Positions 2,530-5,720 of a stretch of DNA of 5,720 bases are shown piece after piece. Both the position numbers and the translations under genes were made by a program. Each line of letters begins with the position of its first letter. The first letter of the stretch is position 1. A model generated the notes under the pieces. The model was not told the DNA's origin. It saw nothing but the letters and a program-made list of their open reading frames with translations, and did no database searches. The stretch comes from Nitrospirae bacterium CG2_30_53_67 (lineage in GTDB: Bacteria; CG2-30-53-67): NCBI GenBank assembly GCA_001873285.1, contig MNYV01000066.1, forward strand, positions 1 through 5,720, read 5' to 3'.

Positions 2530-2558
2530 TTGACAATGATTTTCAATTTCAGTATTAT
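2530..2558 (+). promoter_or_regulatory. Sigma70-type promoter of the fur gene
   Basis: TTGACA at 2530-2535 is a perfect -35 element. A 17-base spacer is followed by TATTAT at 2553-2558 (5 of 6 to TATAAT). Transcription would start near 2565, giving a leader of about 30 bases that includes the ribosome site GGAG at 2585-2588. The surrounding 2477-2560 region is AT-rich. It separates the regulator from the NrfD gene and supports independent transcription. Confidence 0.8.
2532..2550 (+). promoter_or_regulatory. Fur box in the fur promoter
   Basis: The 19 bases GACAATGATTTTCAATTTC match the classical Fur box GATAATGATAATCATTATC at 14 of 19 positions by direct comparison. The site starts inside the -35 element and fills the spacer, so a bound repressor would block RNA polymerase. 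This predicts iron-dependent autoregulation of the downstream Fur-family gene, which is common in the family. Confidence 0.75.
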
Positions 2559-2596: not shown

Positions 2597-3028
2597 TTGT
2601 TGAAGAAGATGCTCGAGCAATTCCAGAATTATCTCTCATCCAAAGGCCTGCGCATGACCGGTCAACGGGAGCTGATCGCCCGCACCTTTTTTGAAAACCA
2701 GGGGCATATGGGCGCCGAAGAACTCCATCATCGTGTTCAGAAGATCTCCACCCAAGTCGGCTATGCCACGGTCTACCGCACTTTAAAACTTCTCTCGGAC
2801 GCCGGTCTCGCCGCCGGCAGGAGCTTCGGCGGCGGTTTTACCCGTTATGAACCGGACAACCAGATTGAGCACCACGACCATCTGATCTGCACCCGATGCG
2901 GCAGGATCATCGAATTTGAAAACGACCGCATCGAATCGCTTCAGAAATCCGTTGCCGGTCAATACCGGTTCAAAGTCACACATCACGTCATGGAGCTTTA
3001 CGGCGTTTGCAGCAAGTGCCGTTCTTAG
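2597..3028 (+). CDS. fur: Fur-family ferric uptake regulator
   Basis: A 143-residue metal-dependent repressor. The N-terminal winged helix includes the recognition helix motif YATVYRTLKLL at residues 56-66. The C-terminal dimerisation and metal domain has HHDH at 92-95 and two Cys pairs, C98/C101 and C138/C141, forming the usual structural zinc site. H37 is also present at the position used by Fur/PerR proteins for the regulatory metal. The start is TTG: GGAG at 2585-2588 is 8 bases upstream, and the first in-frame ATG (2609) is too far from it. A second TTG follows directly at 2600, so the start could be one codon later. Fur boxes in its own promoter and before the next gene favour iron sensing over Zur, PerR or Nur, though peroxide sensing is not excluded by sequence alone. 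Confidence 0.9.
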   Translation: MLKKMLEQFQNYLSSKGLRMTGQRELIARTFFENQGHMGAEELHHRVQKISTQVGYATVYRTLKLLSDAGLAAGRSFGGGFTRYEPDNQIEHHDHLICTRCGRIIEFENDRIESLQKSVAGQYRFKVTHHVMELYGVCSKCRS

Positions 3029-3044: not shown

Positions 3045-3072
3045 TTGATAATGATTTTCATTATCTTATAAT
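3045..3072 (+). promoter_or_regulatory. Sigma70-type promoter of the porin/flavoprotein operon
   Basis: TTGATA at 3045-3050 (5 of 6 to TTGACA), a 16-base spacer and a perfect TATAAT at 3067-3072. The expected start point, about 3078-3080, falls on the GGAGG ribosome site of the first ATG (3088). Transcripts from this promoter would therefore be almost leaderless for that start, which affects the choice of porin start. GATAAT at 3047-3052 could act as an alternative -10, but its -35 is poor. Confidence 0.7.
3047..3065 (+). promoter_or_regulatory. Near-consensus Fur box before the porin operon
   Basis: GATAATGATTTTCATTATC matches the classical 19-base Fur box at 17 of 19 positions and is almost perfectly palindromic. 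It occupies the same place in its promoter as the fur site: it begins at the third base of the -35 hexamer and covers the spacer. It is the stronger of the two sites and predicts that the downstream operon is repressed when iron is sufficient. Confidence 0.9.
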
Positions 3073-3087
3073 CATGGAGGTCTCGAT

Positions 3088-4347
3088 ATGTCTTTCATAA
3101 ATAAATCAGGAGAGGTCAGAGTGTCCGCATATCCCGCATCCAAGGTGATGCCGTCCGTACCCAGCTTATCCGTTTCGGGATCTGTGCCGGCATCTATAAT
3201 GAGAATCACCAAGAATATGATCTTCATCTTTTTACTCATTCTGATCTCTGCCGTCCCTGCTTTTGCGGACAGGCTTTCCGACATGGAAGAGAAAATCGAA
3301 CACCTCACAAATGAACTGGAGGAGTTAAAGATGGAACGCACCGAGGATGAATCCAAGATCCACTTCCACGGTTATGGCGAGCTGCACTACAACGCCATTG
3401 AAAGTGACGAGAATGAGATGGACATGCATCGAATGGTGATCGGCCTGACCTACAGCTTCACGGATCGGATTATCCTCGACGCAGAGGTGGATTTTGAGCA
3501 TGCCGCTCAGGAAATGGAACTTGAATTTGCACACCTTGACTTCCTGATCAACGACGCATTCAACATCCGTGCCGGCGCCATCCTGATGCCGGTAGGGTAC
3601 CTGAACGAGTATCACGAACCGCCGCTTTTCTACAGCGTGGAGCGGCCTTATGTCCAGAAGTACCTCATTCCCACTTCATGGCAGGAGGGAGGCGCCGGAA
3701 TCTTCGGTGAGATCATGCCGGGACTCCGTTACCGAGCCTACATCGTAGGCGGTTTGGATGCATCCGGCTTTACTGCAAAAGACGGCATCCGAAAGGGAAG
3801 GCAGAAGGTGTCAGAGGCCAAGGCCGAGGACCTCGCTTTTGTGGGGAGACTGGAGTATGTGGGCCTGCCCGGCCTCCATCTGGGGGCTTCCTTTTATACC
3901 GGCGGGGCTGCGCAGGACGATCCCTCCCTGGGAGACGCAGACGTCACCCTGGCCGAAGTGGACGGCAAATACCGCATCGGCAATCTGGAACTGATCGGGC
4001 TCTATACCCGGACCGATATCGGCGATACGGACAAGATTTTTGCCGCAACCGGCCAGGCCGTGGGCGAAGAACAGACAGGCTGGTATACTGAGGCCGCCTA
4101 CCACATTCCGTTTTCATCGTCCAAGAAGGAGTTGGTCGTCTTTGCCCGGCGTGAAGAATTCGATACGCAAAAGGAGCTGAGTTCCGGCCTCACCAAGGAT
4201 CCCGCCAATGACCGGGAGGTTACGACCACGGGGCTGGCCTACTATCCCATACCCGAAGTGGCGATCAAAGCTGATTATGAGATGTGGAAAGACGGGACAG
4301 AAAATGACTTCAATGTGTTTAACCTCGGCGCAACGTATATGTTCTAA
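3088..4347 (+). CDS. Fur-controlled outer-membrane porin-like beta-barrel protein
   Basis: A 419-residue frame. From residue 38 a clear signal peptide runs to AFA at 58-60, followed by a charged heptad-like coiled-coil stretch (about 61-90). From about 91 there are alternating polar/hydrophobic strands typical of a beta-barrel, ending in aromatic-terminated LGATYMF, the usual outer-membrane assembly signal. The architecture (signal, short coiled coil, barrel) resembles porins of the phosphate-selective OprO/OprP type, but substrate and exact family are not identified. No TonB box or plug domain is seen, so it is not a classical siderophore receptor. Start choice is open: ATG 3088 has GGAGG at 7 bases; GTG 3121 has AGGAGAGG at 3108-3115; ATG 3199 begins the signal peptide directly but lacks a good ribosome site. 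A near-consensus Fur box lies just upstream, implying induction by iron limitation. Confidence 0.8.
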   Translation: MSFINKSGEVRVSAYPASKVMPSVPSLSVSGSVPASIMRITKNMIFIFLLILISAVPAFADRLSDMEEKIEHLTNELEELKMERTEDESKIHFHGYGELHYNAIESDENEMDMHRMVIGLTYSFTDRIILDAEVDFEHAAQEMELEFAHLDFLINDAFNIRAGAILMPVGYLNEYHEPPLFYSVERPYVQKYLIPTSWQEGGAGIFGEIMPGLRYRAYIVGGLDASGFTAKDGIRKGRQKVSEAKAEDLAFVGRLEYVGLPGLHLGASFYTGGAAQDDPSLGDADVTLAEVDGKYRIGNLELIGLYTRTDIGDTDKIFAATGQAVGEEQTGWYTEAAYHIPFSSSKKELVVFARREEFDTQKELSSGLTKDPANDREVTTTGLAYYPIPEVAIKADYEMWKDGTENDFNVFNLGATYMF

Positions 4348-4377
4348 ACCATTATGATGGCAGACCTCTGCTACAGG

Positions 4378-4413
4378 GAGAGGCAGGCGCTTTGCTGCCG
4401 ATCTCTGCGGCAG
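4378..4413 (+). promoter_or_regulatory. Two mutually exclusive RNA hairpins before the FMN-protein gene
   Basis: The 84-base gap between porin and FMN-protein genes contains overlapping inverted repeats. Hairpin A pairs 4378-4386 with 4395-4405 (9 bp, bulge at 4400-4401). Hairpin B pairs CTGCCG 4395-4400 with CGGCAG 4408-4413. They share 4395-4400, so only one can form. Hairpin B ends 7 bases before the ribosome site GAGG (4421-4424). A run of A, not T, follows, so it is not an intrinsic terminator. It may stabilise the transcript or tune translation. Confidence 0.35.
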
Positions 4414-4431
4414 AAAAAATGAGGAAACCGA

Positions 4432-5004
4432 ATGAATCAAGCAATGGCTGTTCACATATCATTTTCGACATTGTTCACCCTTGTTTTAGGGTGCACTCTC
4501 GTTTCCGAGGGCCGGGCCGAGGTCTATTTAACCCAGGAGCAGGCTTTGAAGATCGCCTTCCCCAAAGCCGAAGAGATCGAAACGGTTACGCTTTCCTTAG
4601 ACCGGGAACTTAAAATACGTATTGAGAAGCGGGCACAAACTCCCGTCCGCTTCTCAGAAATACCTGTCTATATTGGGAGGACTCAAGGGCAGCCGATTGG
4701 ATATGCCATGATCCACGATGTCAAAGGCAAGGCCCGCCCCATCACCTATATGGTGGTGATCAACCCGCAGGGCCGGGCGGCGCGCGTAGAAATCCTGGCT
4801 TATCGGGAATCCCATGGCTATGAAGTCCGCTATCCGTCTTTCCTCAAGCAGTTCTTCGGGAAGTCGCTCGCGGATCCGATCCGAAACCATCAGGATATTC
4901 TAAACATCAGCGGGGCCACGATCTCCTGCCGGGCCATTGCCGACGGAGTCAGGCTCCTGCTCGGGGTGTGGGAGGAATTCTACGGCAAGGAGGTTGTCCC
5001 ATGA
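4432..5004 (+). CDS. Exported FMN-binding protein with covalent flavinylation motif (NqrC/RnfG-like domain)
   Basis: A 190-residue protein with a hydrophobic N-terminal export signal (about 7-28). It could be cut after GRA (27-29) or, less surely, be a lipoprotein at C21 (VLGC). The C-terminal half fits the small FMN-binding domain found in NqrC, RnfG and many extracytosolic flavoproteins. QPIGYAMIHDVKG (87-99) and ITYMVVINPQGRAARVEIL (104-122) form the sheet region, and D155 precedes S160-G161-A162-T163. In characterised members the Thr of SGAT receives FMN through a phosphoester bond made by the transferase ApbE; no apbE gene is in the window. GAGG at 4421-4424 supports the ATG. The stop overlaps the next start (ATGA, 5001-5004), so the two products are probably translationally coupled partners. 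Expected role: a one- or two-electron flavin carrier in the periplasm or on the membrane face. Confidence 0.85.
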   Translation: MNQAMAVHISFSTLFTLVLGCTLVSEGRAEVYLTQEQALKIAFPKAEEIETVTLSLDRELKIRIEKRAQTPVRFSEIPVYIGRTQGQPIGYAMIHDVKGKARPITYMVVINPQGRAARVEILAYRESHGYEVRYPSFLKQFFGKSLADPIRNHQDILNISGATISCRAIADGVRLLLGVWEEFYGKEVVP

Positions 5005-5489
5005 AACCCCTGAATGGCAACGGACCCAATCCGGCCCTCAAGGCAGCAACGGGATTCCTGCTGCTCTTTCTCCTGTCCGGCATCCTTGTTTCGGTCGCAC
5101 ATGGAATCCAGAAGATCGGCTTTCTGCCGGAGACGGTTTCGGCCCACTACCTGGGATCAGACGAGGCCATGGTCTACCCCAAGGAGCTTCCGGAATTGAT
5201 GGAGTCCACCCACGTTCATCTCTTCATGATCCCCCTGGTCTTTTATATCCTCTGCCATCTTTTTGCCCAGACCCGGGTCTCCAAGAGATGGAAGATCACG
5301 GTGATCGTCCTGACCTTCGCCAACATCGCCGGGACCCTGGTCACCCCGTACCTTATCCGGTTCGTCTCTTCCGGTTTTTCCTGGCTGGTTCCCTTTCATG
5401 ACGCGGTCTTCGTCCTCTCCGCTCTCTTGCTCACCTTCGAGCCTCTGCGCGCTATCTTTCAAAACAGGGGCTGCGGTTCCGGAGAATAA
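5001..5489 (+). CDS. Four-helix membrane protein of unknown family, histidine-rich, coupled to the FMN protein
   Basis: A 162-residue integral membrane protein with four hydrophobic segments near residues 14-33, 70-90, 97-118 and 128-146. Basic residues in the 92-98 loop and the C-terminus, with an acidic 44-68 loop, predict both ends in the cytoplasm. Histidines H34, H71, H73 and H133 fall at the predicted periplasmic ends of helices 1, 2 and 4, and H86 lies near the inner end of helix 2. Such placement would suit a b-type haem or metal site, but I do not recognise the family and no haem motif is proven. The start is ATG 5001, with AAGGAGG at 4987-4993 spaced 7 bases. The upstream in-frame ATG at 4968 lies inside the flavoprotein gene without that spacing. 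The ATGA overlap suggests it anchors the flavoprotein or exchanges electrons with it. Confidence 0.8.
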   Translation: MKPLNGNGPNPALKAATGFLLLFLLSGILVSVAHGIQKIGFLPETVSAHYLGSDEAMVYPKELPELMESTHVHLFMIPLVFYILCHLFAQTRVSKRWKITVIVLTFANIAGTLVTPYLIRFVSSGFSWLVPFHDAVFVLSALLLTFEPLRAIFQNRGCGSGE

Positions 5490-5558: not shown

Positions 5559-5705
5559 TTTGTTTTCCAGTGACTTGATCAGTGCCTTGAGCATCCACTC
5601 AACCTCCTCGATATCACTCTTAAGTCTTTTTGTTATTTTATAAATCTCCAAACATAATTGATATGACTGGGGCCTTTCCTTTAACTCCTTGTAGTATTTG
5701 AGCAC
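5544..5705 (-). pseudogene. Internally deleted four-helix-bundle (S23-type) protein gene
   Basis: Read on the - strand, this 53-codon frame has a GTG start at 5705-5703, but the frame stays open to the window edge, so the true start may lie outside. It begins VLKYYKELKERPQSYQLCLE, continues IYKITKRL, and then runs straight into a C-terminal-like helix, SDIEEVEWMLKALIKSLENK. From memory of the S23/four-helix-bundle family (about 115-125 residues), the first part matches helix 1 and the second part helix 4. Helices 2 and 3, with their arginine-rich and NIAEG-type region, are missing. The stop lies in the octamer array. It is best read as an in-frame deletion remnant, though a tiny two-helix protein could still be made. 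Such genes are often found near repeats of this kind; their cellular role is poorly defined. Confidence 0.6.
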
Positions 5706-5720
5706 TTCACTTGGCCCCTG
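5701..5720 (-). repeat. Inverted repeat arm at window edge, cut off
   Basis: The reverse complement of these 20 bases matches 43-62 at 19 of 20 positions (one C/T difference). It is the start of the opposite arm of the right-hand repeat element and overlaps the possible start of the four-helix-bundle remnant. The element continues beyond the window. Confidence 0.7.

Follow-up and report, generated by a model that had tools for sequence, protein, structure and literature searches.

Candidate flavinylated assimilatory iron reductases have been described in PepSY-, MsrQ-, NqrB/RnfD-like, DsbD and P19-associated systems (Meheust 2021, PMC8238504). A further link between flavinylation and iron involves the small, histidine-containing DUF4405/FezC proteins; FezC is modelled as a homodimer and DUF4405 is described as a six-helix protein (Huang 2024, PMC11334425). 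Cyc2 is a fused cytochrome-porin with the signature P-x-F-x-R-[QK]-[TY]...CxxCH (PMC8406198). In 2004 a hypothetical porin under Fur regulation was described from Geobacter metallireducens and Desulfuromonas under the name psp (Rodionov 2004, PMC545781), with weak similarity to PF07396, upstream Fur boxes and a proposed role in iron transport; in Desulfuromonas there are two boxes at -139/-86, 53 bp apart.

The locus described here, from Nitrospirae bacterium CG2_30_53_67, has a porin gene followed by genes for an exported FMN_bind flavoprotein and a small four-helix inner-membrane protein (4TM), together referred to as the trio. The kind of system is already known. Like the candidates of Meheust 2021 (PMC8238504), the trio combines an ApbE-type flavoprotein, an iron-transport context and a proposed periplasmic ferric reduction; unlike them, it includes the porin as part of the unit, none of their membrane partners is present, and its 4TM protein matches none of their Pfam models (no NapH, MsrQ, PepSY, DsbD, NqrB/RnfD or DUF4405 domain is among the Pfam matches of 80 members). 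The trio would extend the flavinylation-iron link of the PepSY-, MsrQ- and P19-type clusters (PMC8238504) with another membrane partner. The 4TM protein resembles DUF4405/FezC (PMC11334425) in its size, conserved histidines and link to flavinylation and iron, but has four helices and not six. It has no PF14358 match and showed no similarity in a profile comparison with a crude DUF4405 set contaminated by cytochrome b. The trio also resembles Cyc2 (PMC8406198) in coupling a 16-strand OprP-like porin to a periplasmic electron carrier with one cofactor, but the trio porin lacks haem and has a separate flavoprotein as its carrier; control by Fur points to uptake rather than Cyc2-like respiration.

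The porin of the window family is very probably the psp of Rodionov 2004, as both have a weak PF07396 likeness, Fur boxes and, in the Desulfuromonadales loci through which the likeness was judged, the 53-bp spacing of a double box (PMC545781). The porin part of the original prediction had thus already been published. In the available part of the 2004 report psp is described alone, with the flavoprotein, 4TM and wide distribution absent from the description (PMC545781), and its two partner genes appear to be previously undescribed; no work on them was found in the open-access literature, and subscription papers could hold some.

The window is the whole stretch analysed, the 5,720-nucleotide contig MNYV01000066.1 (G000:C66), and encodes a DsrO-like ferredoxin, a DsrP-like NrfD protein, fur and the trio (Table 1). 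The open reading frames first given for the porin (3088–4347), FMN_bind (4432–5004) and membrane protein (5001–5489) are correct, as are the ATGA overlap of the last two (5001–5004) and the absence of a TonB receptor from the window. None of the three genes is disrupted, and each evolves under purifying selection, with dN/dS values against sister genome G001 of 0.16, 0.36 and 0.27 for the porin, FMN_bind and 4TM respectively. A plasmid search gave no match. The DsrO- and DsrP-like genes (299–2476) precede fur and have a counterpart at L023 3652–6697; in G001 they come after a gene with several CxxCH motifs, and this arrangement suggests an Nrf/Qrc-type quinone-cytochrome complex adjoining the iron locus. 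Degenerate GGGGTCAAGG / CCTTGAACCC repeats are present at both contig ends (12–111, 147–190, 223–251, 5493–5566 and 5701–5720), with part of them in inverted orientation between the two ends (44 nt, 86%), and probably explain why the assembly stops at these points. On the minus strand, a 53-residue open frame (5560–5720) has no Pfam match, and we take it to resemble the small four-helix-bundle proteins often found with such repeats.

Table 1. Positions of the trio, fur and associated sites in the window.
Feature	Coordinates	Strand	Remarks
Fur-box-like site before fur	2532..2550	+	14/19; conserved in sister genome
fur	2597..3028	+	FUR family PF01475, E 1.4e-34; best NCBIfam matches are ferric uptake regulators
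Fur box GATAATGATTTTCATTATC	3047..3065	+	17/19; orthologous to the fur-feoA intergenic box of G001
Dead 5' end of feoA	3085..3186	+	From alignment with L023 (G001)
Outer-membrane porin, psp-like	3199..4347	+	Native start; SD-preceded ATG 3088 adds 37 in-frame residues
Exported FMN_bind protein, 190 aa	4432..5004	+	SGAT; putative flavinylated Thr163, codon 4918–4920
4TM inner-membrane protein, 162 aa	5001..5489	+	Invariant E68, H71, H73, F75, H86 on TM2

An alignment of the 4TM protein, used as the only query against 84,980 species genomes, yielded 252 relatives. The best 80 of these 252 loci were analysed with up to 10 kb on each side, using six-frame searches with profiles built from the family; about half are Methylococcales, and the counts are not independent events. 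Because the loci were picked by 4TM alone, the counts of FMN_bind and porin neighbours are unbiased by those two genes. FMN_bind is found near 4TM in 79 of the best 80 loci, usually as the next gene, and the sole exception (L083) begins 310 bases from a contig end. The porin is present in 67; in eight of the 13 loci where it is missing, the contig extends less than 1.3 kb ahead of the FMN or membrane gene. As a rule the genes share a strand and run in the order porin, FMN_bind, 4TM. Record titles include Nitrospirae, Methylococcaceae, Methylomirabilota, Desulfuromonadales, Myxococcales, Planctomycetes, Omnitrophota, Latescibacterota, Armatimonadetes and others; within the window family, G003 lacks 4TM and the FMN_bind partner alike. 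The original prediction was open to refutation by a lack of co-conservation in other genomes and withstood this check; with the association extending over many phyla, the three genes almost certainly constitute one conserved module. One locus with FMN_bind, 4TM and ApbE, and in which the porin was not detected, is from a metagenome-assembled genome titled Klebsiella pneumoniae (L046, CAMAWH010000011.1), a title that is probably wrong.

The FMN_bind protein of the window matches PF04205 at 36.6 bits (cut-off 22) and contains the motif S160-G161-A162-T163, which agrees with [S/T]GA[S/T], as expected of the exported protein with an ApbE-type motif first proposed. Among the relatives in the best 80 of 252 loci, 79 match PF04205 (E <= 0.01), G161, S165 and E126 are present in all 80, and T163 in 79. 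The usual flavinylation motif is Dxx[ST]GAT, and most relatives in the alignment show this form. The window lineage has D-I-x-N-I-S-G-A-T, with Asp at -5 from the Ser, two residues further back than usual, and Leu at -3. Judging from the sequence, covalent flavinylation of T163 by ApbE is likely. An ApbE with a lipoprotein-like N terminus is encoded elsewhere in the window genome (G000:C17, E 1e-95), and ApbE is in the cluster or fused to FMN_bind in ~17 of the best 80 of 252 loci. Natural FMN_bind-ApbE fusions, with substrate and flavin transferase in one protein, are present in L037, L039, L049, L055, L058, L061 and L063.

The AF2 model of the 4TM protein (pLDDT 90.5) has four transmembrane helices and a periplasmic helix. 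Five residues are found in 80 of 80 sequences (best 80 of 252), all on TM2: E68, H71, F75 and H86 on one face and H73 on the opposite one. By the positive-inside rule E68, H71 and H73 are placed near the periplasm and H86 toward the cytosolic end. With all of the invariant histidines on TM2, a bis-His haem would need a dimer or another ligand. There is no match to a Pfam or NCBIfam family, no match in a fold search of the PDB was significant, the structures returned being generic helix bundles and MAPEG enzymes, and a profile search against PDB sequences returned nothing. The unrecognised histidine-bearing four-helix protein of the original prediction is thus confirmed; it is a family with no entry in either collection, and both it and the composition of the module seem to be new.

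The modelled porin is a barrel with an N-terminal helix, of the trimeric-porin type, and its closest folds are the 16-strand OmpC/OmpF/OmpT and OprP, so that the predicted structure agrees with an outer-membrane barrel protein as first proposed. It scores 16.3 bits against PF07396, below the cut-off of 20.9; this family is matched by 13 of 45 porin relatives (best 3e-13).

The link to iron, which initially rested on one box, now also draws on adjacency to feoAB/fur, on Fur boxes enriched in unrelated lineages and on a neighbouring DtxR-feoB pair. All four other trio genomes of the window family (G001, G002, G004 and G005) have fur, feoA and feoB upstream of the trio, and in L063 an FMN_bind-ApbE fusion is followed in turn by 4TM, a DtxR-type regulator and FeoB. 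Tabulation of neighbours, suggested with the original prediction for apbE, feoB and Fur boxes, adds to the ApbE count above Fur-family genes in 11 and FeoB in seven of the best 80 of 252 loci within 10 kb of the trio, where roughly one locus each is expected by chance (a rough estimate taking 20 kb out of a 3.5-Mb genome); several of the seven FeoB-bearing loci are close relatives. As FeoB is near the trio in so few loci, the importer is not fixed. Fur-type sites, matching AAATGAnAATnATTT at 11 or more of its 13 specified positions, lie upstream of the porin in 45% of loci, compared with 4% for the remaining genes of these loci (Mann-Whitney p 2e-11, or 4e-8 with the TGAWAATNATTWTCA core, both optimistic because loci are related); with this consensus, roughly half of the loci show weak boxes or none. 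Paired Fur boxes, 53–54 bp apart, occur in five Desulfuromonadales trio loci. These sites predict Fur control and iron regulation of the trio, and linkage of the module to iron is highly probable.

A CDF-type cation efflux gene, mostly convergent, is near the 4TM gene in eight loci (L042, L043, L044, L047, L051, L031, L034 and L085) and is the next gene in six. A di-haem peroxidase gene, MauG/CcpA-like by our own reading of the sequence, is near the trio in 12 loci (e.g. L091 10586–11902), mostly from methanotrophs, which have a high copper demand. Both would suit a module that reduces or mobilises another metal or metals, such as Cu, Mn or Co, with Fur control reflecting general metal or redox stress. 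This is unlikely, as the named neighbours in several lineages are fur, feoA and feoB, and a scan for Fur boxes found matching sites ahead of the porin.

The reading we favour, and regard as rather likely, is a flavin ferric-reductase module under Fur control that supplies Fe(II) for uptake. Fe(III) or a small ferric complex would enter the periplasm via the psp-type porin and be reduced there by the FMN_bind protein, with its FMN linked to T163 by ApbE. The 4TM protein, possibly a dimeric b-type cytochrome, would supply electrons from the membrane quinol pool by a path including H86 at the cytosolic end of TM2 and the E68/H71/H73 cluster at its periplasmic end. Electron flow would thus be outward, the resulting Fe(II) would pass to FeoB or another importer, and all components would be raised when Fur is released. 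Reduction or mobilisation of a metal at the envelope, as in the original prediction, gains from the co-conservation and the iron linkage. Two corrections apply: the box belonged to feoA, and the porin had been published as psp.

Methanotroph genomes contain homologues of 4TM (profile E-values down to 4e-16) whose TM1–TM2 loop carries an inserted CxxCH domain between the periplasmic YxG motif and TM2. They are present in 40 of 61 genomes searched from the order of Methylobacter (loci L139, L140, L141, L142, L143–L172) and retain Y50, G52, H71, H73, F75 and K98, with E68 and H86 absent, a loss that counts against the favoured reading; no Pfam family covers their membrane part. Some adjoin cytochrome-porins that match the Cyc2 signature or are one residue off (L140, L141 and four of 30 further loci). 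Retention of H71, H73, F75 and K98 in the CxxCH homologues suggests that the scaffold works with a periplasmic redox carrier, and the use of one scaffold with c-type haem in one branch and an FMN partner in the other provides the strongest sequence-based argument that 4TM transfers electrons, supporting a putative electron-transfer role.

Since Cyc2 is an Fe(II) oxidase, these neighbours could also point to inward flow, with the flavoprotein and 4TM oxidising a substrate admitted by the porin, either Fe(II) or an organic donor, and passing electrons to quinone. We consider this improbable, as Fur repression at plentiful iron has the wrong sign for an iron oxidase and the Cyc2-like signature is in none of the 80 trio loci (best 80 of 252). 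The fullest form of the ferric-reductase reading is a hitherto unrecognised, TonB-independent iron-acquisition system of about 250 species in many phyla, comprising a porin, an ApbE-flavinylated periplasmic reductase and a new small membrane electron-transfer family, the scaffold of which recurs with a c-type haem next to Cyc2-like porins; the prospects of this being correct are evenly balanced.

In the window genome the near-consensus Fur box reported before the porin is real but belonged to feoA, and was moved to the porin by a deletion. It is the best match in the window to the 19-bp Fur consensus, and this exact site was never matched within three mismatches in 200 dinucleotide shuffles; the site before fur probably serves fur autoregulation. 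Alignment with G001 shows that the box, the Shine-Dalgarno sequence and the following ~100 nt are the start of feoA, with the start codon changed from ATG to ATA and a 4-bp insertion creating an early TAA. The junction between this relic and the porin gene is at 3187–3195. Approximately 3.2 kb is missing relative to G001; this segment holds the remainder of feoA, the whole feoB, a second, small barrel gene and a gene that we take from its sequence to be DUF2325-like; the local feoAB is deleted and a second, distant feoB is kept on G000:C90. An assembly join of intact copies was rejected because the lost start codon and early stop resemble an old pseudogene. Also rejected was a porin-proximal box ancestral to the trio in the window lineage, as the box is that of feoA and none lies directly before the G001 porin; G005, unlike G001, has its own Fur box directly before the porin. 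The AAGGAG before ATG 3199 is lost in the window genome; translation could begin in frame at 3088, with 37 extra residues, or at 3199, which lacks a good ribosome site. ATG 3199, encoding M38 of the long frame, is probably the native start, as in the sister genome. That the cluster is a degrading remnant, in which the deletion took feoAB and the porin's own ribosome site, would fit the dead feoA, the lost AAGGAG and the N-terminal extension from 3088, but is very unlikely given three open genes with the low dN/dS values above, a porin now directly behind a strong Fur box and good SD, and an extension before the signal peptide that, although long, need not block export.

Many bacteria that have Feo and a small siderophore gene set depend on ferric sources for their ferrous iron, and the extracytosolic reduction this demands is mostly unexplained. 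The module would be a compact answer, testable in the culturable methanotrophs Methylobacter tundripaludum and Methylovulum miyakonense. It gives partners to a Fur-regulated porin that has been unexplained since 2004, and 4TM defines a membrane protein family absent from Pfam and NCBIfam.
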